From: Coleophoma eucalyptorum
Taxonomy: Eukaryota; Ascomycota; Leotiomycetes; Helotiales; Dermateaceae
Direction of reading: 5' to 3'
Length of the DNA: 12,536 nucleotides
NCBI GenBank assembly: GCA_026120035.1
Contig: JALRME010000099.1
Coordinates: 1-12,536, forward strand
A model generated the notes under the pieces. It did not search any database, was not told the DNA's origin, and saw only the letters and a program-made list of their open reading frames with translations. This document shows, one piece after another, positions 1,072 to 12,536 of this stretch. The first letter of the stretch is position 1. Every line of letters begins with the position of its first letter. Made by a program: the position numbers and the translations under genes.

Positions 1072-1827
1072 GGTTACTCTTGGGTTCCCATGTATTTTCT
1101 GAGTGTGGGTATCCCATCCATTTGATCAGGTACTTGATTTGTTTTCTAACGTATTTGCAGTCAAGTATTCCTTCTACCTCGTATTCTGCGTTTGGGTTTA
1201 CAGGTTCAATTTCTGTAACTGGTGTAGGCGGTACGCCTGGTGGTGCTGGTTCCAGGAGGGAAACGTGAAAGACCGGGTGGATGTTCATTGTTTTAGGTAG
1301 CTTCAGCCTGTAATTGACTGGCCCTACTACTTTGTCAATAATCAACGGTCCTAGTTTTCTGTGATCTAACTTGTCGCTAGGTCTTTTTGTTTTAATGTTT
1401 CTGCGGAGTAAGTAGACTTTACCCCCCTCTTTTAGCGTTGGTCCTATACTACGCTTGTTATTGTAGTACATTGCTGATTTCTACGCGATAAACTGGATAT
1501 CCGCGGCGAGTTCCTCATGCAATGCCTTGAGCCGATCGATTTGAACGATCGCCTCTTGTGCTTGGATGTTATCCACTATAGGGTCGTTGTACGCCGTTGG
1601 GTTAAACCCATAGTTCGCAAAGAACGGCGACATTCCTATAGTTTCCGTATCCGCGCTGTTGTACGCAAACTCTGCTAGGGGTAGTAATTATACCCAATTG
1701 TTCTATTGGTAGTTGACATAGCATCTTAAGTAGGTTTCCATGGTTTGATTAATTCTTTCCGTCTGACCGTCCGTCTGCGGGTGGAAGGCTGTGGATAGCT
1801 TATGCTTGACTCCTAACACTATTATTC
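824..1827 (-). pseudogene. pol: Ty3/gypsy chromovirus integrase C-terminal part with chromodomain (truncated)
   Basis: This is the end of a retrotransposon polyprotein. Read from about 1827 leftwards, it shows the integrase core signature ([17 protein letters not shown]), the downstream [10 protein letters not shown] block, the GPY/F-type module (KLDHRKLGPLIIDKVVGPVNY, from about 1372, then IHPVFHVSLLEPAPP) and a chromodomain (VEGILDCK..., IKWMGYPHSENTWEP) ending near 1075. Reverse transcriptase, RNase H, protease and gag would lie to the right but are absent, because the frame is cut at about 1828 by element 1. The frame is otherwise unbroken by indels and carries three stops (plus positions 1481-1483, 1688-1690, 1703-1705). 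Each falls where family members usually have Gln, as expected for C-to-T change at CpA. The Arg/Pro-rich run from about 1070 to 824 is probably only an extension over the antisense gene. Chromodomains guide such integrases to histone-marked chromatin. Confidence 0.85.
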
Positions 1828-1918
1828 CCCATTTACAGTGTAAATGGGTTTTTTCCCCATACAAAAAATGTCTGTGCGTAGTCTTGGCGTACAATCTCAT
1901 TTACAGTGTAAATGGGTT
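1828..1918. repeat. duplicated palindrome at probable left end of element 1
   Basis: CCCATTTACA (1828-1837) and its exact reverse complement (1839-1848) flank a single G, making a perfect 21-bp interrupted palindrome. A 21-bp direct copy covering most of it recurs 68 bp downstream (1830-1850 and 1898-1918), with 8-bp arms in the second copy. The first copy starts exactly where recognisable integrase sequence ends, and the next block is the leader of the C2H2-YR-helicase gene. Inverted arms around a short centre, present in two copies at one end, resemble a recombinase or zinc-finger binding site. That role is inference. No matching copy was found at the right side of element 1. Confidence 0.6.
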
Positions 1919-1969
1919 CTAGGGTTAACTTTTATTTCCTTAATTCTACTACTATTCGTACGAAGAAAT

Positions 1970-2551
1970 ATGTCAAATCATTCAGAGAATCAGGCTCAAC
2001 CTATTCCCCAAATTTGGAGTCATTTACTCTACTTAAATGTGGATTTTCAAGTACTGGTCTGTTTGGGCGACCACTGCCAATGTGTTGTGCGCCCGAAGGC
2101 AATTGTACGACACCTCCAAATCTACCATCAGACTCCAATTGAACTACGCCAGCAGATTCAACAGTATATTCAGTTATTTCCCTATTCGTACGACCACTCG
2201 ACAGTCCAGCTACCAAAGGATGGGTTATTCCCCCAACCGTATGTCCAGGTGGTAGATGGATTCCAATGTCACCAGTGCCCCTTTAAAACCCAGAACCGCG
2301 CTGTTGTCCGACAGCATGTAAATAAGGACCATAGGAAGCAGAGGGTCAAAGATCAAGATATCTTTACTTCCGTACGAATGCAATCATGGTTCAAAGGTAA
2401 GAAGCAGAGGTTTTGGGTGGTAGATGAAAATGCTATACCATCTACTATAGCTGCTACCCAGCCCGGCCCAGAATCCAAGGGCAGTCAAGCCCAAGGAATA
2501 TCAGGTTTGATTTCCCCAGCCGGGCGGGTTAAATCAGCTACTAATCAATAA
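1970..2551 (+). CDS. N-terminal zinc-finger segment (C2H2, OrsD/DUF3505-like)
   Basis: This open segment gives a 193-residue product if the TAA at 2549 is read. After a short leader (MSNHSENQ), it has a first degenerate finger (VCLGDHCQC...VRHLQIYH) and a classical C2H2 finger, C-x2-C-x12-H-x4-H (FQCHQCPF...QHVNKDH, from about 2261). These are followed by a conserved-looking block ending MQSWFKGKKQRFWVVDE. That arrangement matches the fungal OrsD (DUF3505) C2H2 region often fused to RecQ-like helicases; family membership is pattern recognition only. It probably binds DNA, plausibly the element's own repeats. It is in frame with the helicase segment and is better read as the N-terminus of that protein than as a separate gene. 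A CGTACG site sits 13 bp before the ATG. Confidence 0.6.
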   Translation: MSNHSENQAQPIPQIWSHLLYLNVDFQVLVCLGDHCQCVVRPKAIVRHLQIYHQTPIELRQQIQQYIQLFPYSYDHSTVQLPKDGLFPQPYVQVVDGFQCHQCPFKTQNRAVVRQHVNKDHRKQRVKDQDIFTSVRMQSWFKGKKQRFWVVDENAIPSTIAATQPGPESKGSQAQGISGLISPAGRVKSATNQ

Positions 2552-2558
2552 ACACCAG
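2505..2558 (+). other. candidate 54-nt intron that would remove the first in-frame stop
   Basis: The donor is GTTTGA (2505). A TACTAAT-like branch site lies at 2539-2545 and a CAG acceptor at 2556-2558, about 14 nt after the branch A. The length is 54 nt, typical of filamentous fungi and a multiple of three. Splicing removes the TAA at 2549-2551 and joins ...QGIS to A-SYDKMEREIQ in the same frame. It falls in the unconserved linker between the zinc fingers and the next helical region. The alternative is that TAA is a mutated CAA. There is no transcript evidence. Confidence 0.5.
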
Positions 2559-2572
2559 CTTCGTACGACAAG

Positions 2573-2857
2573 ATGGAACGGGAGATCCAGCAGTGGATGA
2601 GCCAGGCTCAAGAGCGCCGGCTGACCCTGCTCGCCCAACCAGCCGCTGTAGAGCTGGATCCATGGCTGCGATATACCAAGTGGTATACCGTCCTCAACCA
2701 GTCTAAGCATGACCTCCTCCAAACCTCTACATACCTCCGGCTTCCAGACCCTATGGAATCCGGCTTACACCGGGTCGTACGGGCCTGGAAGCGTATCTTC
2801 GACCGGTGCTTGGATACACTAGAAGCTACCGACCATAAGGACACTTTAAAATGGTAG
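2573..2857 (+). CDS. linker segment between zinc fingers and recombinase (part of the fusion gene)
   Basis: This 94-residue open segment, in frame with its neighbours, ends at the TAG at 2855. It contains a helical, charged start (EREIQQWMSQAQERR), then DPWLRYTKW and a second helical block (RVVRAWKRIFDRCLDTLEA). The element 2 gene has the counterparts LWLYRVGW (about 8020-8050) and KAFDWMI (about 8140), followed like here by a block ending in an RYxxxW and a Y-x-x-R motif. Family sequence resumes directly after the stop (SQRPFELPQSS, ARYSVLWEQCLCYLLR), so this is an interrupted middle part and not a separate gene. Confidence 0.5.
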   Translation: MEREIQQWMSQAQERRLTLLAQPAAVELDPWLRYTKWYTVLNQSKHDLLQTSTYLRLPDPMESGLHRVVRAWKRIFDRCLDTLEATDHKDTLKW

Positions 2858-2986
2858 GGTTCGCCCCGGATTGAGGTTGCGAGCCAGCGGCCATTCGAGC
2901 TACCCCAGAGTTCCCGGACGCTAGCCCGGTACAGCGTCCTCTGGGAGCAATGCCTCTGTTACCTACTCCGTACGAGCCCCCCTGAA

Positions 2987-5833
2987 TTGGATGGTGAGAC
3001 AGAGACGGGGGTAAAGTTTACCCAGGAGCAGTGGGAATCCACTCAGAAAATCCAAGAACATCTGAAAATCCAGCCCCAGAATGATCCGTACAATGAGGAG
3101 GCGGACCAGGACCCCGAGCTTACAATAGAAGTTATGAATCTATGTCAATTGATTTTAGTACAAGACTGTAGTAGGATCCCCTTGTACGAATCACCGTTAA
3201 TACACTACCTAGCTGTCCAAGGAATTGACCCTAACGCTAAGGCATTTCGGACTTCCTTCTCCTATACCCCAATTCTAGCTAGCATCTTATGGGTGGCTCG
3301 GCTCGTCTTGCTTGAGGTCGCCGTACCAGCTCAAGCATGGACTCGAATAGGGCTCCGAGGCAAAGCAGACATCCCCTCTATCCCCGTACGAATCCATAAG
3401 ATCCGGTCGAGGCACCTATGCGAGGGCTCGTTTGGTCCTACATCTAGTGTTCTTAGCCAGCTGGCGATAGGAAAGAAGGCTAATTCCATACATGAAAGAC
3501 CATCCAATATCCACTGGTCTACCGACTCTAAGACCATCTACTTTGGAGGGATGCCAGTACCACTAAACAAGATCCGTACGATGGGCTTAGCTCTTACAAG
3601 TGAATGTCAGGAGCTACTCCAGGGACTAGCATTCGGCCAGGAGCTTCCTACCATCCAGCTGGACCAAGTGGTAGATAGTATGGCATGGAGTAGTGAATTC
3701 CGACAGTCTGACTATAGCTTCATCAGTAGTTCTAAGAACAGCCCACAGCTTCGGGTCGGGCACTTCTACTTGCTCAAGCTCGCCCAAAAAGGCCATGGTC
3801 AGATGATTGACCATTCGTACGAAGACGCAAGGTGGATTGAAGGTAAAAAGCAGGCGTATCTCACCCAAGAAAGCCAGTTTTTAAAGAAGCTGATGGTACA
3901 ACTTCATATTACCGGGGGCCAGCCGGCCCGAGGTCCAGAGCTAGGGTCGGTGAAAGTCAGTAACAGTGTCTACTCAGCTCGGAACCTCTATGTCATCAAC
4001 GGACGGATGTGCTTCTTAACAATGTACGACAAGTCACGAAAGCGTCGAGGGAATTCCGAGTATATCGTACGGTGCTTGCCCGACCCAGTTAGTCAGATCT
4101 TGGCCCAATACCTTGTCTTCGTCCGGCCATTTGCTCGAGTCCTAGAAGAAAGGGGAAGCGAGTTCTTATTTGCATACAAGCAAGGACCATGGGCTGGCGA
4201 GCAATTGAGCCGCGAGCTAGCTAAAGCTACCAATAAGCACCTCGGTGTTCGTCTGACGATAGCAGGGTGGAGGCACGTCGCTATTGGGATTTCCGTACAA
4301 TGCTTGATGCAGTATAGTAAGGTGTGGGAAAAGGAGACCAAGTCGGAAGACCAAGGGGAGGACGAGGCCGAGGACGAGGACGACGAAGAAGCAGAGGCTA
4401 AGATGAAGGACCATGTGCTCGTACGGCAGGCTGGGCATGGCCAGAGAGTCGCACAGGCCCACTATGCCATTGATGGGAATTTCCTCCATCGGCTTGGACC
4501 CCAGCTGATCTCAGCTTTTGAGCATGCATCTCTGGCATGGCACCAGCTCTTCAGGTGGGATGCTACGGGTGAGATTGACCGTACGAAGCCTCAGCATCGC
4601 CGGCAAGCTAGCCAACCACTAGAATCCCCTCAGGTAAAGAAGGAGCGGATTGGACCAGCCCCAACCAGCCAGCATCTTGCCCGTTCCAGGCGCGGGCCCG
4701 ACTTGGGATCCGCGAAGGCCCGGCTAGGGCTCGTACGGATCTTGGGTGCATCTGCCCAGCCTCGGTCGGAGGCACAGGCCCGGGCCCTCGAGCTGGTCCA
4801 TCACCCTCCTCGGACGTCCCTGATTGTCCTCCCGACCAGCAGTGGCAAATCCATCCTCTTCTTCTCGGTCGCCGCGATGGTTGACCAACAGACGGTGGTT
4901 GTTGTAGTCCCCTTTCGAGCCTTGATTGACGATCTTGTCGTACGAGGACAAGAGCTTGGTCTCCATTGTCACGAGTGGCGGCCGGGTTCCACCTATAGCC
5001 TAGCTCAGTTGGTATTGGTTAGTGCCGACCAGGCAGTCCAGCCCGAGTTCTTACACTGGGCCAAAGGACTCGAACTTTATAGTGAACTCGCCTACCTCTT
5101 CTTTGATGAAGGGCACGTAGCCTTGACCGACCGATCCTATCGTACGAACCTACGGGAACTTTGGAAACTACGTTATCTGAACTGTCCATTTACCGTGCTT
5201 ACTGCTACGCTTATGGTTGATTTGGAGGAGAAGCTCTTAGAGGAGCTATTGATTCCTAATGCAAAAATCTTTCGCCGACCAACCGTACGGCCCAAGGTCA
5301 AGTACCAGGTTGTCGATAGTCAAGGACAGATGCCATCAACCAAAGCTATCGAATATATCCAGCGGATTGGACGATTACTAGATCATAAGCGAGGGGTGGT
5401 GTACGTACGAAGCTATAGCATAGGGGAGATGATCAGTGAGGAACTCGACTGTCCCTTCTATAAGGCTACTGCTCAAGACAAGAGCCAGGTCTTAGATACA
5501 TGGGCACATGGGCCGGGAGGCTGGATTGTTGCCACCGGGGCATTAGGAACCGGGATCAATATCCCCGGAATCATCTATATTCTCTATGTCGACCGACCGT
5601 ACGGACTCACCAGTTTTGTACAGCAGTCCGGACGAGGCGGACGGGATGGCGAGGTAAGCGAATTCGTAATCTTTGTTAACGTTACAAGCACCCAGCCATA
5701 CTACCGACCGAGTCTGATGAGTGTATACTCGACCGAGAAGGCCGATGAGCAGGCCTTGACCGAGTTCATACAGACACTAGGTTGTCGGCGCCAGGTCCTC
5801 GGACGACATATGGATGGGCCTCAGGATAGCTAG
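2987..5833 (+). CDS. tyrosine-recombinase-like plus RecQ-like SF2 helicase (948-residue open segment)
   Basis: This is the largest open frame, and the same frame is open upstream to 2858. Residues about 40-290 are helical, like a YR core-binding domain. The catalytic-type set is R315 (GGQPARGPEL), K349 (MYDKS), R429 (GWRHVAIG, with Ala where box II His usually sits), H484 (QAGHG) and Y493 (AHYAID). H484 to Y493 is nine residues, and R315 to R429 is 114, close to the spacing in Cre, lambda Int and XerD. An acidic run (residues about 453-470) lengthens the R429-H484 loop. The helicase has Walker A PTSSGKS (K621), motif Ia VVPFRALIDD, DEGH box (707-710), TAT (739-741), motif V GALGTGINIPG, and motif VI QQSGRGGRDG (879-888). 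CRR (933-935) opens a RecQ-like zinc motif that the stop at 5831 cuts. A truncated enzyme could still be made. Function as a DNA recombinase with ATP-dependent unwinding is inferred from motifs; nuclear location is expected. Confidence 0.8.
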   Translation: MDGETETGVKFTQEQWESTQKIQEHLKIQPQNDPYNEEADQDPELTIEVMNLCQLILVQDCSRIPLYESPLIHYLAVQGIDPNAKAFRTSFSYTPILASILWVARLVLLEVAVPAQAWTRIGLRGKADIPSIPVRIHKIRSRHLCEGSFGPTSSVLSQLAIGKKANSIHERPSNIHWSTDSKTIYFGGMPVPLNKIRTMGLALTSECQELLQGLAFGQELPTIQLDQVVDSMAWSSEFRQSDYSFISSSKNSPQLRVGHFYLLKLAQKGHGQMIDHSYEDARWIEGKKQAYLTQESQFLKKLMVQLHITGGQPARGPELGSVKVSNSVYSARNLYVINGRMCFLTMYDKSRKRRGNSEYIVRCLPDPVSQILAQYLVFVRPFARVLEERGSEFLFAYKQGPWAGEQLSRELAKATNKHLGVRLTIAGWRHVAIGISVQCLMQYSKVWEKETKSEDQGEDEAEDEDDEEAEAKMKDHVLVRQAGHGQRVAQAHYAIDGNFLHRLGPQLISAFEHASLAWHQLFRWDATGEIDRTKPQHRRQASQPLESPQVKKERIGPAPTSQHLARSRRGPDLGSAKARLGLVRILGASAQPRSEAQARALELVHHPPRTSLIVLPTSSGKSILFFSVAAMVDQQTVVVVVPFRALIDDLVVRGQELGLHCHEWRPGSTYSLAQLVLVSADQAVQPEFLHWAKGLELYSELAYLFFDEGHVALTDRSYRTNLRELWKLRYLNCPFTVLTATLMVDLEEKLLEELLIPNAKIFRRPTVRPKVKYQVVDSQGQMPSTKAIEYIQRIGRLLDHKRGVVYVRSYSIGEMISEELDCPFYKATAQDKSQVLDTWAHGPGGWIVATGALGTGINIPGIIYILYVDRPYGLTSFVQQSGRGGRDGEVSEFVIFVNVTSTQPYYRPSLMSVYSTEKADEQALTEFIQTLGCRRQVLGRHMDGPQDS

Positions 5834-6502
5834 GTTAGCTGCCGAGCTCAAGACTGGGTGTTGTGTGACTTCTGCCGGCGGCAGTGGTATCAAGAGCGGC
5901 ACCTCGCCAAGCTCGAGGCAGCATCGTCCGAAGACCTCCCGGCCCCGGCCTCGACGCCCGACCCGAACGAGGAGAGAAATAGTGTCCAGCTCATCTAGGA
6001 GACATCGTACGAAGCCGAGCACCAAGCCGAGCAGATGGTCCGGGTTCTTCAACATCTTACCAAGTCCTGCTTCTTCTGTCAGCTCCTCCTTCACCCCCTA
6101 GACTCGGTATCTGGAGAGGATCAGCCTAGCCATTCGTACGATGAATGTCGTGAAGCCATACAGTATGGTTGTAGCCGTCAAGAATTCTTCCAGTGGGCTA
6201 AGGAGCTCAAGCTAAAGGCGGGGCATGACTGCTACAAATGTGGGTTGTCGCAGAACGTCTGCCGGTGGGTGGAGGATGGCATCCCATGTGAGTATCCCTT
6301 GGTAGGTCTTCAGGGGATCTTCATCCTACACCAGCTTGGCTTTCTTGAGCGGATTGCTTTAGGGTTGGGATTCTCTGGATCGTACGAACAAGACATTTGG
6401 CCATGGATGCAGAGAATGTCCGAGGGGAGAAGAAGCTGCTACGAGAGTAACTGGACGATGGTATGGCAGACAGCTTGCTTAGAGCTCTATATTAAATCAT
6501 AA
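5834..6502 (+). pseudogene. Cys-rich C-terminal module of the element 1 protein
   Basis: The same frame continues after the TAG at 5831. It gives Cys at codons 5840, 5864 and 5873 (VSC...LCDFC), completing the RecQ-like zinc motif begun at Cys 5783 (C-x18-C-x7-C-x2-C). An acidic, Pro-rich linker follows up to the TAG at 5996-5998. The rest, open with an ATG at 6035 (155 residues), has CFFC, CYKCGLSQNVC and GIPCEYP, then a helical end (IWPWMQRM). The element 2 gene has matching CCWTCEVPQK and GIPCQYD motifs followed by a similar EWM block, so this module belongs to the family. Its role is unknown; it is probably zinc-binding. The frame closes with TAA at 6500-6502. Confidence 0.65.
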
Positions 6503-6512
6503 GGAATAATAA

Positions 6513-6531
6513 GGAGGGGGGGGAGGAGGGG
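6513..6531 (+). other. G-rich tract directly after the stop codon
   Basis: Runs of 2, 8, 2 and 4 G separated by single A residues lie 10 bases after the TAA at 6500-6502. A G-quadruplex is possible on the plus strand, although only two of the runs exceed two G, so it would need the 8-G run to be split. It stands out against the AT-rich surroundings. A role in transcript end formation or as a helicase substrate is speculative. Confidence 0.4.
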
Positions 6532-6540
6532 TTATTCTAG

Positions 6541-6620
6541 TAGAGAATCTTTAATTGATTATTTTAACCTATTAAATAAATAGATTATCTTTAATATACT
6601 CTTTTAACCTATAGATAAAT
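6541..6620. repeat. two-copy 40-bp tandem repeat in the 3' flank of element 1
   Basis: Positions 6541-6572 and 6581-6612 align without gaps at a 40-bp offset, with 26 of 32 bases identical. They share ATCTTTAAT and TTTTAACCTAT. The first unit contains an AATAAA (6575-6580) about 70 bp after the stop, which could serve as a poly(A) signal. No wider role is evident. Confidence 0.55.
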
Positions 6621-6826
6621 AATACTTACTACTGTCCTAACTACCTATAAGGTAGTTCACCTAATATTCTACTAGGTAGTTGACTGACAACCCAATATGA
6701 CCCTGGGGTCCTCGTACGACCCCCCAAATTAAGCGAGAAGGGTCTCGATCGAATCCTTATTATCTAAGGTACCAATATCGGTACGAGCGCTCCTCTTTAT
6801 TTCCGGCATATTGTATTTAGTACTTG

Positions 6827-6887
6827 GTATAGGAGACGTATATAATAGAAGCTTATATACTTAAAGTATCTATTGATTCTCCTATAC
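6827..6887. repeat. nested hairpin in the inter-element boundary
   Basis: An outer stem GTATAGGAGA (6827-6836) pairs perfectly with TCTCCTATAC (6878-6887). Inside it, GTATATAA (6838-6845) pairs with TTATATAC (6853-6860) around a 7-base loop. The 61-bp structure lies between the last CGTACG-like site and the first direct repeat of the element 2 side. It may mark an element end or act as a transcription or fold-back barrier. A structural call only. Confidence 0.5.
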
Positions 6888-6933
6888 TTATAATTAGGTG
6901 AGACCCTATCCATTATTGTTGAACCATTATAGG

Positions 6934-7014
6934 GTCAAATTGATTTAACCACCATATAAAATTCGCCCCACTTTATAGGCGAGATAGTCAAATTGATTTA
7001 GTCAAATTGATTTA
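6934..7014. repeat. three copies of GTCAAATTGATTTA
   Basis: Exact 14-bp copies lie at 6934-6947, 6987-7000 and 7001-7014, the last two being adjacent. The first overlaps the right arm of an 8-bp inverted repeat (6902-6909/6929-6936). The layout, repeats a few tens of bp apart ahead of the helicase-type gene, resembles the duplicated palindrome at the left of element 1, although the words differ. It may be a protein-binding or terminal site of element 2. Confidence 0.6.
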
Positions 7015-7043
7015 TTAGGGTTATAGCTTAATAGGCCCAAGAG

Positions 7044-7228
7044 AAGCCCAAATTTGACGTCAAGATAAGTAAGTATTCAGCGATAAACCCCCAACTAATT
7101 ATAAGACTAGAAACCTAATATTCATTAGTTATTTCGGTTTTTGTATCGTCGTCGAAGTTTTGATGGGGTAAACAGGAGTGTATAGACTAGGTAAGCCAAA
7201 TTCGACGTCGAAGCATAAGGTAAGTATT
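7044..7228. repeat. diverged 34-36-bp direct repeat with GACGTC palindromes
   Basis: 7044-7077 and 7193-7228 share the order AAGCC, AAATT, GACGTC, ATAAG and TAAGTATT with three one- or two-base gaps. Their centres are palindromes: TTGACGTCAA (7054-7063) and TTCGACGTCGAA (7201-7212). They lie upstream of the element 2 gene and may be cis sites. The function is unknown. Confidence 0.45.
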
Positions 7229-7374
7229 AAAGTATAAGGGTATGTATAAAGGCGGGTTATGAACCTAGGAAAAAGTAAGGGAAGCACTGGGATTTAGAAC
7301 GCGTTACATAGAAAGACGCGTAAAGAGGTTTATATATAAGGTAAAGAGTAAATAGTTAGAGGATAATCAATTAA

Positions 7375-7548
7375 GCAACCCTATTCAAATCCAAAATACA
7401 TCCATTTGTGTATTTACTCGAGTATAGGTTAATCGTTTGTTTAGAATGCAAGTACGTCGTATTACCTAGTTATGTTAATACCTATTTAAGGGATATCAAT
7501 ATACATAAGGCTACCAAGGAAGTCCAAGAACGGATCGATCAAGAAGTA
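7375..7548 (+). pseudogene. N-terminal finger remnant of the element 2 gene (frame 1)
   Basis: Frame 1 reads through IHPFVYLLEYRLIVCLECKY, then VNTYLRDINIH and KATKEVQERIDQEV before a TAG. The C-x2-C at 7438-7449 and a Y/H pair downstream match the first finger of element 1 (VLVCLGDHC...HLQIYH) in position. The next block of the gene is in frame 3, so an indel or an intron lies between about 7548 and 7640, where a short GA repeat (7572-7581) and in-frame stops also occur. No start codon can be assigned with confidence. Confidence 0.45.
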
Positions 7549-9350
7549 TAGTATATTCGCGGATTAAAAAGAGAGAGAGAGTATAGTTAAATAGGTTAGT
7601 TTTCCTATCCCTATCTAACCCACCCACCCAAGTATTGCAAGAGCCTAGAACGGACGGAATGAAATATCAAGAATATAACAGTCAAGGGTTACTATGTTAA
7701 TATATCGTATGTCAATTAGCCAATATCTAGAAACATTACCGGGAAGAGCATATATAGGTTAATAGTCGAAAGAAGGGTAGATAGATCAAAAGGAAAGAGT
7801 TAGTAGTCCTATAGAGAACCGAAGTCTACTACTAGTATTTTTCCGTTCGTGGGCCCGGAGTATAGTATTTTGAGGTAAGTAGTCGAGCCAATCCTCGAGT
7901 AGGAATTATACCATCCGGAGATAGTAGATTTATAGTAGCAAAGCAAGAATTATTAGTAGCGTTAAAGAAGGCCGAAGACGAAGAGCGAAAGTAGATCTTA
8001 GAACCCGACGAAAGTCGTAAGCCAAATCTATAGTTATACCGGGTTGGGTAGGCATCCTACTTGATAGGGTTAGATCGCGACGAGGTAAGGGAGTTAGTTA
8101 AGCTAGTTAAGGAGGATGGATCAGAATTATAGGTATTATATAAAGCATTTGATTGGATGATTTAAGGCGTATAATTTAATATAGTTAAGAAGGTAGTCGG
8201 AATCTATATATTGTTTAAGGCTAATAAGAAAGAGATAGACTAGAAGCCGACTATACTATTTAATAGTTAGATGAGTGTAACTATAGTAAAGAGATATACC
8301 AAGGTTTGGAAGACATTATTATATTATATATTCCGAGCCGAGGATAACGACGAGGATAAAAGGCTATTATACCGGTTGATAGAGAATCAATAGGACTAAC
8401 TAGAGGTATTACGAGATAAGATTTTAGAGTTTCGGAGGTAGAAGGAGCAACAGCCTATAAAAGAAGACCCTAAAGACGAGAGAGAGTCAGATAAGGAGAT
8501 TAAGTAGATAAAGTAGATTTAACGATAGGTTTTATAGTTTTGTATCACTTTATTAAACTAGCTATTATAAGACTACGAGTATAAGAGTGCTATTATTAGT
8601 AGATTGGTAGTTTTGAGGATACAAGAGGATAAAGAGTGGTTAGATACTAAGGATTATATACCGAAATACTCGGTCGTGATTAAGTTGGCCCGATTGATGG
8701 TGTTACAAGAGGTATATAAGAGACGGTAGGCCGAAATCATTAGATATAGTATACGTGGATTACCCCCGAAGGATGCGAAGAGGGCAGCCACAAGTTATTA
8801 TCGGTTAACCCGTAGTTTGGTCCAAGAATTCATAACTATAGCTTATAACGAGAAGGATCCCGTACTAATGTAGTAGTTATATGATAGTCGATTATATAGG
8901 TTCAAGATCTAGTATACTAGTATAGCGGGAGGCAAGATCTAGTGGATTAAAGATACTATAATATATCCTAATATTAAGTTTAGTATGAATTAAGTATATA
9001 CGATAGTTAACGAGTTGTTAGAGGAGGCTAGAGAGGAGTTATTTAAGGAATTAATTATAATAGGATTGGATGAGAAGGGAGAGGTAGATGCCAAAGTGCC
9101 CCTAATCAAATAGGAGTCTATAATTGACCAGCCGTCCGAGAGCCGAGTTGGATGGTTATTTTTAGAAGACGAGAGGAATGAATGGGTAGTATATAAAGAG
9201 TGGTAGATATTCTAGAGGATGTATAAGGAGCCAGAAGTCCGAGGAAGGTTATTAGATCCAGCCGGGAATTTATAGATAGAAGTATTTACCGTATATTAGC
9301 GTTATATTACCTAATTCAAAGAGTTATTATTGATTTTGATATAGTTATAC

Positions 9351-10109
9351 GGAGGTCAGTCTAGTAGAGCGCCCGAGTTGTTAGGGTTACGGTAGAAGAA
9401 TATAGAGTATAGGGGGGTTAGGAATATATTTATTAAGGAAGGGTTGGTTGTATTTATAGTTATATATCATAAGGGGTATAGGAGTAGCGAAAATATTAAA
9501 ATCATCTACCGATATTTACCCTAAGAGGTCGGCGAATTATTAATATATTATTTATAGTTGGTATTACTATTTTGGGAGAAGTTGTAATTTAAGGTAATAG
9601 GAAAGCCTAGCGCTAGCCTATTTTTATAGGAGGACGGAGAAAAGAAGGAGTATCGATAGTAGATAGGACCAAAGCGACTAAGGCAAGGAGACAAGTAGAG
9701 GATATACCCCGAGGATCAAGAGAAGCCGATAGGCTAAGATCCAATAGACGATAACAGTTTAGAGTAGGACGGGAAGGCTATAGGCGAAGGTATATTTCAC
9801 CTATCGGGCGAACGAAATCAAAAGCAGTTGATTACCTAGAGACAAGACCGTGGATGGCCATTCGAGCGAGTCCAAAAGATTATATAGGAGAGTAGTAAGC
9901 GGTAGATAGGGGTTAGGGTGAATATTAGTATATAAAGGTAGATTGCTATTACTATTTCCCGTAAGTATTACCGTAATAACCGATTTAAGGAAGAGAAGTC
10001 TAAGTTAGAAGACAGGGATTAGGACGAGGATAATCTAGATAGGGATAACCTATAGGATTTACAATCCGGGTATAGAACCTATATTATAGGTATAATATAT
10101 ACTAGGGAA
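9351..10109 (+). other. tyrosine-recombinase-like domain remnant in element 2
   Basis: Frame 3 shows GGQSSRAPELLGLR with the first Arg at 9366-9368, a K in YHKGYR at 9471-9473, the second-Arg block (NISI, stop, R at 9936-9938, stop, IAITISRKY), and the end block LQSGYRTYIIGIIYTRE. The residue at 10071 (TAT, Tyr) sits where element 1 has the active-site type His, consistent with CAT to TAT. The putative nucleophile Tyr at 10098 is exactly nine codons later, as in element 1. An acidic stretch (DRD...DEDNLDRDNL) occupies the same loop as the acidic run of element 1. Two independent, diverged copies keeping this pattern support the recombinase assignment. Confidence 0.65.
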
Positions 10110-10340
10110 TTAATAGAGGGGGACAATAGTATTATTGGCCGTAGGGAGAAATTCCGATGGGTCAGCCATATATGGTATTGTTAGTTAAATTTCCCGTCCG
10201 TATACGAAGGGGTGGGTATAAGCGGACGAAACAAGAGAAAGAGAGAGTTATACGAAGAGGAGATATAAGACGATCAATTGAGGAGGTAGAAGCGATTGAG
10301 AGGGGTCAATATCCACGAGGAATTAGAAGGTATGTTTGGT

Positions 10341-11320
10341 GATAGAGCCGAATTCCGTAGGTTATAGGAACTAGTATTAAGGGCTATTATAAAAGACAAG
10401 AGTCCCATTTTGGTTATTATAGGAACTAGGATAGGAAAGAGTTTATTGTTTATATTATCAGCCAAGTATGTTAGTAACGAAACTACTATTGTTATTACGT
10501 CATTAGTTTCATTATAGTACGATTTAGTCGACCGGTATTAGAAGACCGGGATTTCATGTATGATATAGGATTCGCGTAAGGCCAAAACCTAGGTACATTC
10601 GCCCACCCGGGTGGTTATAGTTACGCCCGAGTTAGCGGTTAGTAAGACATTCAGTACGTTTTTAACCCGATTACAAGGGATGCACTAGTTAGACCGGATT
10701 GTAGTTAACGAGTGTTATACCGTATTAGATAGTACGCTTAAGTTCCGGCCCAAGATGATATAGTTAGGGGATTTGGTTAGAAGAGAGGTCCAAATGGTTT
10801 ATTTAATAGTTATATTACTATCGTATACCGAACCGGAAATTATAGAGATTATAAAGGTGAAGGCCGAGGAGGTCTATATATTCCGGACGGTCACTAGTTG
10901 ACCTAACATTCAATATTCGGTATAGGAGTACGAGGGAGAGGAAGAGGTAGCTATATACTAGTTGGTTAAGGACAAGTTAGATGAATTCCTAGCGTTAGCC
11001 AAAATCATTATATACAGTAGTAGTATTACTAGCACTAAGGTATTAAGTAAGGTATTATAGTACTACGTATATTACCGAGAAATTAGTAGTACATAGAAGA
11101 AGGAAGAGATTCGGAAAGAGTGATAGAGTACCAATAGTCGAGTGATTATTACTACTAATGCATTTGGGTTAGGTATTAACTAGCCCGATGTCCGATATAT
11201 AATTCACGTAAGGCTAATTTACTAGATTCGAAGTTATAAGCAAGAGAGTGATAAGGCCGGCCGGGACGGAGAGAGATACTAGGCCATTATTATTATACCC
11301 AAAAGGAAGTAAGAGGCATT
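10341..11320 (+). other. RecQ-like helicase domain remnant in element 2
   Basis: Frame 3 reads AIIKDKSPILVIIGTRIGKS (Walker A at 10422-10442), TTIVITSLVSL (motif Ia), RIVVNECYTVLD (motif II at 10707-10718), NAFGLGIN (motif V, about 11158) and QESDKAGRDG (motif VI, 11241-11270). Compared with the usual RecQ motifs, DECH has become NECY and the motif VI GR has become DK. Every one of these is a G-to-A or C-to-T change. The product would be inactive even without stops. It is closer to canonical RecQ motifs than element 1, which has PTSSGKS and DEGH. Confidence 0.75.
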
Positions 11321-11879
11321 ATAGAAGGTATAGCGGTATCCCCGTAATCAGACGATAGATCGAATTATAGGTAAAGTAGTCAGCGAGACATAAAGGAGAA
11401 AGATAGAGATACAAAAGGTCAACCGATTGATTAATAGAGTACGATATCGAAGGATATATTTAGACGAAGAGTTAGACGGAAGGATAGATCGATTAAGGTA
11501 TAAAGAGGGAGAAGAGGTATATGATATATACTAGGAGGATGATACCGTATTGGCTAGGATGGAGTAGCAGAAGGAGGTATATAATCAAGCCTAGATGATA
11601 GATAGTAGGATTGATATACCTAGTAGCGACCAAGTGCCCACTAGCGTTCGATAGAGCGACCCACAGACACCCACTCGGAGGGTCTAGTTCCTACCGCTAT
11701 TACGTAGGTAGATGCCAGATACGCCGGCGTTCCCTAGTAGTACCATTAGCGTAGCCGATCGGGACGAGTTTCAGGCGCAACAAAGACAGAGACAGTAGTA
11801 GCGGGTCAAGGTCGAGGAGTAGACCATAACGGAGTGCTAGGAGGTTTGGAGGTTAGAGAAGCAATTAGATCAATAGGTT

Positions 11880-12380
11880 CGAAAGTGTCCGATTTGCCAT
11901 ATACAAGAGTGTAGTGGTCAGATATATAACGTATATTACGAATTGGATGATTGTCCCGATCCTAGGCAAAGGTATATGGTTGAGCAGGTGGAGATATTAT
12001 AAGGGATGGAATTCGAGGTATACGCGTGTTGTTGGACGTGTGAGGTACCGCAGAAAATATATACGTATTGGGAGGAGGTTATAGACGGAGAGAGGCATTT
12101 CTATAAGGTCGAAGGGATACCGTGTCAATACGATAGGATCGTTCGGCCAGCAGTAGTAGCGATATTGATTATAGGGGAAGGATGTAGAGACAAGGTTATA
12201 GAATGGATGGGGGAGGACGAGGTTTTAGGCAATATAGAGGGGGCAAGCGGAGACAAGGTTAAGGAAATCAGGAAGGTTATATTAATATAGTTACAGTAGA
12301 AGGTAATTTAGGGAGGGTTAGAAGCCAGTATTTTTATTAAGGTGTTTTATCATTTAGTGTAGTATATAGACCGGATATAA
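11880..12380 (+). other. Cys-rich C-terminal module remnant in element 2
   Basis: Frame 3 contains CPICHIQEC (from 11886), then ELDDCPDPRQ, and after a TAA near 11999 an open 94-codon stretch (12006-12290) with ACCWTCEVPQK, GIPCQYDRIV and VIEWMGEDE. These match CYKCGLSQNVC, GIPCEYP and WPWMQRM of element 1 in order. Reading through a TAG at 12288 and others gives GGLEASIFIKVFYHL, which looks like the natural end. The spaced Cys pairs suggest zinc binding. The ATG at 12006 is not a real start. Confidence 0.6.
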
Positions 12381-12443
12381 TCAAATTAAAGGATTCAGTT
12401 ATATATAAGAAGAGGAATATAGTATAGTTACAAAGCTAGAGGG

Positions 12444-12517
12444 CCAAGGTCAGGGTTAGAGTGATATAGAATAGAGAGGGTTAGGGTTATAAAGTATAAA
12501 GAAGGTTAGGGTTATAG
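12444..12517 (+). repeat. TTAGGG-like words at the right edge
   Basis: GGGTTAGGGTTA (12478-12489), GGTTAGGGTTA (12504-12514) and AGGGTTAG (12452-12459) occur within 75 bp after the end of element 2. TTAGGG is the usual telomere repeat of filamentous ascomycetes. The words are interspersed rather than a clean array, so this could be degenerate internal telomeric sequence or simply purine-rich AT-biased sequence. TTAGGGTTATAG also occurs at 7015-7026, directly after the 14-bp repeats on the left side of element 2. Confidence 0.35.
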
Positions 12518-12536
12518 TAGGGATTATATAGGGAGA

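Follow-up and report, generated by a model that had tools for sequence, protein, structure and literature searches.

A palindromic word, YCGTACGR, recurs at even spacing in unrelated transposons of Coleophoma eucalyptorum: candidate docking sites for a shared protein

A stretch of 12,536 nucleotides from the ascomycete Coleophoma eucalyptorum (contig JALRME010000099.1 of assembly GCA_026120035.1; "the window" hereafter) contains a mobile element with tyrosine recombinase (YR) and RecQ-type helicase domains. A sequence-only reading of the window had drawn attention to repeated copies of the palindrome CGTACG in this element. We found that arrays of the same word, mostly in the form YCGTACGR (Y, pyrimidine; R, purine), are also present in a Ty1/Copia retrotransposon and in Fot1/pogo transposons of the same genome. 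The comparisons of copies and relatives indicate that it is the DNA word itself that is under selection, in elements unrelated to one another. Our tentative interpretation is that the evenly spaced words could well be where a shared DNA-binding protein docks, predicted to be a dimer and likely a product of the host, which would keep transposon chromatin open or shielded from the host's defences.

The CGTACG array of the window

All 22 CGTACG copies of the window lie within 1957-6718 (the first at 1957, the last at 6713), and the count is 0 in 1-1811 and 0 in 6743-12536. The array is bounded by its carrier element. A second-order Markov model predicts 1.17 copies (z 19), and CGTACG is the top hexamer by far. 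The base following CGTACG is a purine in 22/22 copies and the base preceding it a pyrimidine in 21/22, the exception being an A before the copy at 5404; every position beyond the Y/R edges has an information content of at most 0.36 bits. The counts of the sequence-only reading (22 copies, none elsewhere, about one expected, and the same two flank ratios) were confirmed. The element, its reading frame and the sites, the latter without strand, are:

1812..6742, plus strand, mobile element with the array, edges from sister copies
1844..6502, plus strand, single reading frame, start codon likely 1970
1956..1963, site 1, YCGTACGR, likely 5′ untranslated
2186..2193, site 2, YCGTACGR
2370..2377, site 3, YCGTACGR
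2561..2568, site 4, YCGTACGR
2775..2782, site 5, YCGTACGR
2968..2975, site 6, YCGTACGR
3384..3391, site 7, YCGTACGR
3574..3581, site 8, YCGTACGR
3815..3822, site 9, YCGTACGR
4065..4072, site 10, YCGTACGR
4419..4426, site 11, YCGTACGR
4579..4586, site 12, YCGTACGR
4731..4738, site 13, YCGTACGR, absent from the copies on contigs C87, C54 and C3
4938..4945, site 14, YCGTACGR
5140..5147, site 15, YCGTACGR
5283..5290, site 16, YCGTACGR
5403..5410, site 17, ACGTACGA, the sole site without a preceding pyrimidine
5597..5604, site 18, YCGTACGR
6005..6012, site 19, YCGTACGR
6134..6141, site 20, YCGTACGR
6380..6387, site 21, YCGTACGR
6712..6719, site 22, YCGTACGR, 3′ of the reading frame
3087..3092, one-mismatch site (CGTACA) at which seven sister copies have the exact word

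The frame 1844-6502 contains 21 CGTACG, whereas 5000 synonymous-codon shuffles of it, which preserved the protein and the codon usage, averaged 2.55 copies and never exceeded 9. Between 1970 and 6500 there are 20 sites, distributed over the codon phases as 4/7/9. Because all codon phases are used, sites occur outside the coding sequence at both ends and the shuffles fail to reproduce the count, the array must be regarded as a property of the DNA; the earlier statement that protein coding cannot explain it holds.

The intervals between the sites have a mean of 226 bp, a minimum of 120 and a maximum of 416. Their coefficient of variation (CV) is 0.37, compared with 0.96 for the null, and 0/20000 random placements were equally even. 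A phase-locked period was not found by spectral test: the best wavelength was 200 bp, with P = 0.46 against interval shuffles and 0.18 against random placement. The array is evenly spaced rather than periodic. Thus, of the period of about 200 bp proposed earlier, the even spacing stood and the phase locking did not; likewise, a nucleosome-scale spacing fits the numbers, but without phasing. One-mismatch sites had been proposed to fill the long gaps. Those at 3183 and 4294 do exist, but there are others in the element (1888, 2104, 3087, 3322, 4023 and 5400) and 11 further ones outside it.

Conservation of the sites was assessed in sister copies. CGTACG contains neither CpA nor TpG and would be spared by repeat-induced point mutation (RIP); it was therefore compared with RIP-immune control hexamers, which were taken from the window and had no CA or TG inside or at their edges. 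In 11 diverged copies (69-76% identity), which are related and so not independent, 86 of the 100 covered sites were exact. In the same copies only 378/2257 CpG-containing RIP-immune hexamers and 1493/6239 of all RIP-immune hexamers were exact. These sums omit the near-identical copies L032 and L035 (95-97% identical).

Arrays in Copia and pogo transposons and in homologous proteins

The whole genome was searched in both orientations for a triple pattern, in which gaps of 215-245 and 170-200 separate three CGTACG, and 34 places were found, compared with 2 for the reversed control. The gaps were derived from the window's own intervals, so the census is biased towards the window element. Sorted by coordinates and letters, with some elements counted twice, the places comprised 15 YR/RecQ, 12 pogo, 4 Copia and 3 other.

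Locus L061 (C10:127500-134000) is a Ty1/Copia retrotransposon with a long terminal repeat at about 649-1101, which is repeated at C10:135314-135764. Its best protein matches are Copia polyproteins (52-61% identical; three of the first four carry the RVT_2 label); a Pfam search with the degraded L061 read-through gave no match. The L061 array has 28 sites in 5853 bp, and the 6.5-kb stretch holds 29, where 2.75 are expected. The mean spacing is 202 bp with a CV of 0.44 (0/20000 random placements equally even), and the 21 sites in the pol frame are divided 7/7/7 between the codon phases.

Locus L070 (C87:1700-4300) is an intact Fot1/pogo transposon, with 554 codons uninterrupted by a stop, in a genome that otherwise has many RIP-marked copies. 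The predicted transposase matches DDE_1 (E 4e-34, above cut-off), and the Tc5 and Psq helix-turn-helix (HTH) matches are both just under their cut-offs; the terminal inverted repeats are of 54 bp (366-418/2178-2231). There are 13 sites, all YCGTACGR, with a mean spacing of 134 bp and codon phases 6/4/3, while synonymous-codon shuffles averaged 0.74 sites and never exceeded 5. When three pogo copies were compared both ways, 32/47 sites and 192/975 control hexamers were exact; in the weakest single comparison 5/10 sites were exact. The arrays seen beside YR/RecQ copies at L062, L035, L037 and L013 proved to be further pogo copies. At five loci taken together, the elements hold 75 sites in 15.8 kb, and the sequence outside them a single site in 13.7 kb.

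The genome (45.26 Mb, 101 contigs) has 2103 YCGTACGR, compared with 3048 of the reversed control. Being rarer than its reversed form, the word is not generally abundant in the host, and one of the two findings that would have refuted the sequence-only reading, a host equally dense in CGTACG, did not arise. Four gypsy loci (4-5 kb each) had 0, 1, 0 and 0 sites, an open-framed Copia of another family had 3 in 4.5 kb (a pyrimidine before only one), and another pogo had 1 in 1.8 kb. Among 17 sister RecQ loci, some of them overlapping, 16 have 0-2 sites; the remaining one, L013, has 5, three of them inside a pogo copy. Array-less families thus exist within the carrier superfamilies too, and whether an element has the array depends on its particular family and not on the superfamily, on RIP or on the genome. 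In the stretch examined at L071 (C10:312000-316500), a Copia polyprotein frame is open over 1096 codons and has no array.

These controls also bear on the possibility that chance, codon usage or RIP produced the words. RIP, which would spare a word without CpA or TpG, is active in this genome (58/69 of the changes from L070 to L069 are CpA/TpG to TpA). Yet the gypsy loci, RIP-marked as they are, and the sister RecQ loci are nearly devoid of sites, whereas the intact pogo frame holds 13, far more than its codon shuffles. We consider this explanation contradicted and extremely improbable; RIP or codon bias as the cause of the array was rejected on the shuffles, the RIP-immune controls, the gypsy loci and the intact pogo.

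Depending on the phase, a YCGTACGR in coding sequence forces R-T-(residue of a purine-starting codon), [S/P]-Y-[D/E/G] or x-V-R. Such protein words were counted in homologues and compared with the same words reversed; the homologues were the best 120 of 274 for Copia and the best 120 of 1680 for pogo. The YR/RecQ homologues P0001-P0003 have 25, 30 and 31 words (10, 7 and 10 reversed), while P0005-P0010, nearly as window-like, have 6-12 (4-8 reversed). CGTACG was in the best 25 of 2080 hexamers, a limit chosen after the ranks were known, for 7/118 YR/RecQ and 15/120 Copia homologues (about 1.4 expected by rank alone for the latter). The strongest Copia homologues include proteins with 40 words vs 11 reversed, 37 vs 7 and 31 vs 4; the pooled counts were 1262 vs 839 for Copia and 581 vs 437 for pogo.

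Columns were analysed for 108 of the 120 pogo homologues (length 500-580 aa), of which 22 had an excess of at least 6 over reversed. Picking homologues by their word count itself guarantees an enrichment, and the informative part is therefore only the link to columns: words at the L070 site columns occur in 1-20 of the 22 positives and in 0-6 of the other 86, and away from these columns there are 4.8 words in the positives and 2.5 in the others. In the alignment column of site 2562, SYD or SYE is found in 4/6 YR/RecQ carriers with residues there, and the listed non-carriers differ. P0003 has 20 words off the window's sites, suggesting that sites turn over while the density stays. The second adverse outcome envisaged earlier, relatives in which the sites just follow the amino acids, did not occur either: sites are kept or gained while other residues change.

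CGTACG ranked 368th or worse in the named YR/RecQ and Copia proteins (Penicillium, Fusarium, Colletotrichum, Pyrenophora, Blumeria, Botrytis, Pseudogymnoascus); the only named protein that came near to a positive result was a Copia protein from Coleophoma (16 vs 7, rank 11). The carriers are at most 64% (YR/RecQ) and at most 59% (Copia) identical to any of the loci examined, and for the pogo positives the identity to L070 is 53-97%; certain homologues may represent the same elements in fungi closely related to C. eucalyptorum. The array-like Copia homologues P0126, P0141 and P0142 are nearer to the array-less L071 than to L061, which hints at repeated gain of the array. The protein-word hexamer scan gave no convincing case of another word in other transposon clades. 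ACTGCC/GTGGCA words in the RecQ clade P0015-P0044 were about equally frequent in the reversed proteins and probably reflect composition. No viral contig was confirmed as a source of relatives of the YR/RecQ, pogo or Copia proteins.

The carrier element and its surroundings

The left edge of the element is defined by the C87 copy (97% identical), which starts at 1812, and the C3 copy, which starts at 1811; at the right end the C54 copy aligns to 6647-6742. The frame 1844-6502 is interrupted by four in-frame stops (2549, 2855, 5831 and 5996), whereas in the longest homologues the same parts form one protein of about 1500 aa. Its parts are:

1828..1918, no strand, 5′ end of the element with repeats (repeat search)
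2027..2332, plus strand, OrsD domain with weak C2H2 finger matches (Pfam)
3593..4552, plus strand, tyrosine recombinase domain, matching the YR catalytic fold
4769..5650, plus strand, RecQ-type helicase core, DEAD and Helicase_C with a RecQ fold match

The domain searches agree with the earlier claim that the element encodes a C2H2/OrsD part and a tyrosine recombinase: OrsD (PF12013) was above its cut-off (E 2e-12) and the C2H2 finger matches were below theirs. R113, K147, R227, H282 and Y291 of the YR domain, which we take to be the catalytic residues, are invariant across 38 sequences (encoded at R 3929, K 4031, R 4271, H 4436 and Y 4463). The near-palindromic 21-nt repeat CATTTACAGTGTAAATGGGTT is present in two copies at the 5′ end (1830-1850 and 1898-1918), together with an inverted repeat (1828-1859/1885-1916), and short 5′-end fragments of the element are scattered at many places of the genome. 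An Rfam scan matched nothing at gathering thresholds, and a viral fold library gave no match at E 0.001.

Several copies are connected with telomeres. Those on C3, C56, C86 and C90 pass directly into TTAGGG repeats, and at the C54 copy TTAGGG repeats stand at the contig end, about 1 kb past the aligned element. The YR/RecQ copies L034, L036, L039 and L044 are cut by telomere repeats at differing points and look as if chromosome ends had healed inside the element. In the C54 copy (L033) four further sites lie at 6303-6709, beyond the aligned 3′ end; this subfamily may possess a longer 3′ part.

On its left (824-1811) the element is flanked by a minus-strand relic of a chromodomain gypsy (Tf2-1-like) pol, apparently broken by the element at about 1811. 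To the right (6743-12536) lies the relic of a second RecQ-helicase family, RIP-marked, with many in-frame TAG and a strong bias of G over C; it ends in degenerate TTAGGG-like repeats at about 12450-12530 and has no CGTACG.

Possible readers of the word and known systems

In the interpretation that we tentatively prefer, YCGTACGR would be read by a trans-acting protein. Because the word is palindromic the reader would bind as a dimer, and because three unrelated elements carry the array it would be shared and probably host-encoded. One bound dimer would be placed on each roughly nucleosome-sized stretch over the whole body of the element, beyond promoters, so that the element as a whole would benefit, most likely because the reader opposes heterochromatin or hinders RIP. 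A description of such an array system was not found in the literature searched (open PubMed Central (PMC) papers).

A number of observations weigh against this interpretation. A plain transcription factor would not usually have its sites spread over the entire body of an element. The pair pattern CGTACG-N180-210-CGTACG, which was not used as evidence, occurs 96 times genome-wide and its reversed control 98 times. The flanks are looser in the pogo L066 (Y 5/8, R 7/8) and in the Copia L061 (Y 25/28, R 26/28). Many array-bearing copies are dead and RIP-mutated, so any shield would be leaky. In two comparisons the distance to the sites was slightly greater for RIP-mutated than for unmutated positions (P 0.04 and 0.02, uncorrected), no such distance effect was seen in pogo (P 0.67), and local RIP protection near sites, being weak and inconsistent, was discarded. 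Arrays in relatives from other sources are deduced from protein words, and the window's own open reading frame places CGTACG only 60th of 2080 in the protein-word hexamer scan, which makes this test insensitive. P0001-P0076 have 525 words vs 455 reversed and P0077-P0118 have 292 vs 344; by this measure only a minority of the listed YR/RecQ homologues appears to carry the words.

A bolder proposal, which we think unlikely, is that a YCGTACGR-bound protein every 134-226 bp on average would leave only stretches that approach or fall short of the homology length for RIP, unrelated transposons having converged on a common DNA address and altered their own proteins so as to bear a shield against homology sensing or heterochromatin. 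In Neurospora, according to excerpts of PMC4858203, 155 bp of homology triggers RIP and 220 bp promotes substantial RIP, and the match to the array spacing is numerically suggestive. The same excerpts speak against a homology shield, as a short interruption lowers RIP only partly.

Other identities and functions of the reader have to be weighed against a shared host protein. It might be encoded by a transposon, for instance as the Psq/Tc5 HTH part of the pogo transposase or as a YR/RecQ protein, and be exploited in trans by the other families. The array carriers all coexist in one genome, the intact pogo copy has likely DNA-binding domains, and the accessible part of PMC5735166 describes VANC of VANDAL as a transposon-encoded reader of dispersed motifs. 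Nevertheless, the L070 terminal repeats lack a site (the first is at 491, the repeat at 366-418), and domains of these kinds also occur in pogo homologues and YR/RecQ families that have no array; we give this alternative a modest share of the probability. That the array serves copying, integration or nuclear maintenance of element DNA, as a replication- or partition-like mark, would suit the even spacing from one end of the element to the other, the non-coding ends included. The three carriers are, however, expected to use three different chemistries (YR, reverse transcription with integrase, and DDE), which makes a shared role in mobility hard to see, and we regard it as doubtful.

CENP-B-like proteins act in the repression and clustering of Tf2 elements in fission yeast, and a host surveillance protein might similarly read the word here, the sites marking transposons for silencing. 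Tf2 mobility is limited by silencing and clustering, as stated in a portion of PMC4981269. Surveillance should lead to loss of sites, yet relatives keep and gain them and the intact pogo bears a full array, so that this too is a rather doubtful explanation. Self-recognition by the element's own zinc-finger/YR protein, one of the functions suggested by the sequence-only reading, is suggested by the OrsD/C2H2 part and the YR that the element encodes. It is undermined by the same array in Copia and Fot1/pogo, which belong to other superfamilies, and by related RecQ families of the genome without an array, and we judge it improbable. No Copia or Fot1/pogo element is known to encode a zinc-finger/YR protein.

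One word kept at near-even spacing within the genes of a retrotransposon, of a DDE transposon and of an element with recombinase and helicase parts means that unrelated mobile elements are under a common selective pressure, strong enough to bend their proteins. Whatever reads the word would give a shared point of control over transposons in these fungi, and would bring to light a host factor exploited by all these elements or else a defence evaded by them all. The question of how active transposons survive despite RIP and heterochromatin silencing is thereby made testable, and the protein-word test offers a way to seek hidden DNA codes from protein databases alone.

Short words dense inside coding sequence are familiar from bacteria as Chi, KOPS and DNA uptake sequences. 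Those words mark the whole bacterial genome or a replichore, whereas the present array singles out particular transposon families, the host itself being unmarked. Telomere-linked helicases of Fusarium oxysporum resemble the carrier element as helicase genes at chromosome ends, full-length or truncated; the sections of PMC12857005 available describe no dispersed palindrome array for them, and the element here has YR and OrsD. Fusarium RecQ-type homologues are only 25-30% identical to the element.

Two ascomycete systems resemble the sites themselves. In the cyp51 promoter of Pseudocercospora fijiensis, a repeated unit of 16-20 bp contains TCGTACGA, and the strains with raised expression repeat a 19-bp unit of this kind; six units were accompanied by 3.3-5.6-fold expression relative to one control isolate and less relative to another, and three units by no significant change (PMC6637983, in extract). 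This repeat, whose reader is unnamed in the extract, is a tandem promoter insertion, unlike an array running through transposon bodies; the raised expression nonetheless suggests that an activator reading the word may exist in ascomycetes. FgSR, a homodimeric host protein of Sordariomycetes and Leotiomycetes, recruits SWI/SNF (PMC6420630, in part). TTCGTACGAA contains TTCG/CGAA as in FgSR sites, but the FgSR element consists of two CGAA repeats in 16 bp according to the same part, whereas the core here is CGTACG and many sites lack CGAA; FgSR was rejected as the reader for this misfit.

The VANDAL transposons of Arabidopsis likewise contain many dispersed short motifs, through which a sequence-specific protein acts over the whole element (PMC5735166, for this and the following, as far as its accessible part goes). 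The VANC21 motif YAGTATTAY marks non-coding parts, and the present array lies mostly within coding sequence; VANC targets differ between related families, whereas one word is common to three superfamilies here; and VANC is the element's own protein, unlike the likely host reader proposed above. Of the properties that characterize VANC-type systems, motifs that are non-coding and specific to one group are not seen in C. eucalyptorum, and motifs dispersed in excess of chance are. In kind, VANC/VANDAL is the closest relative of the array.

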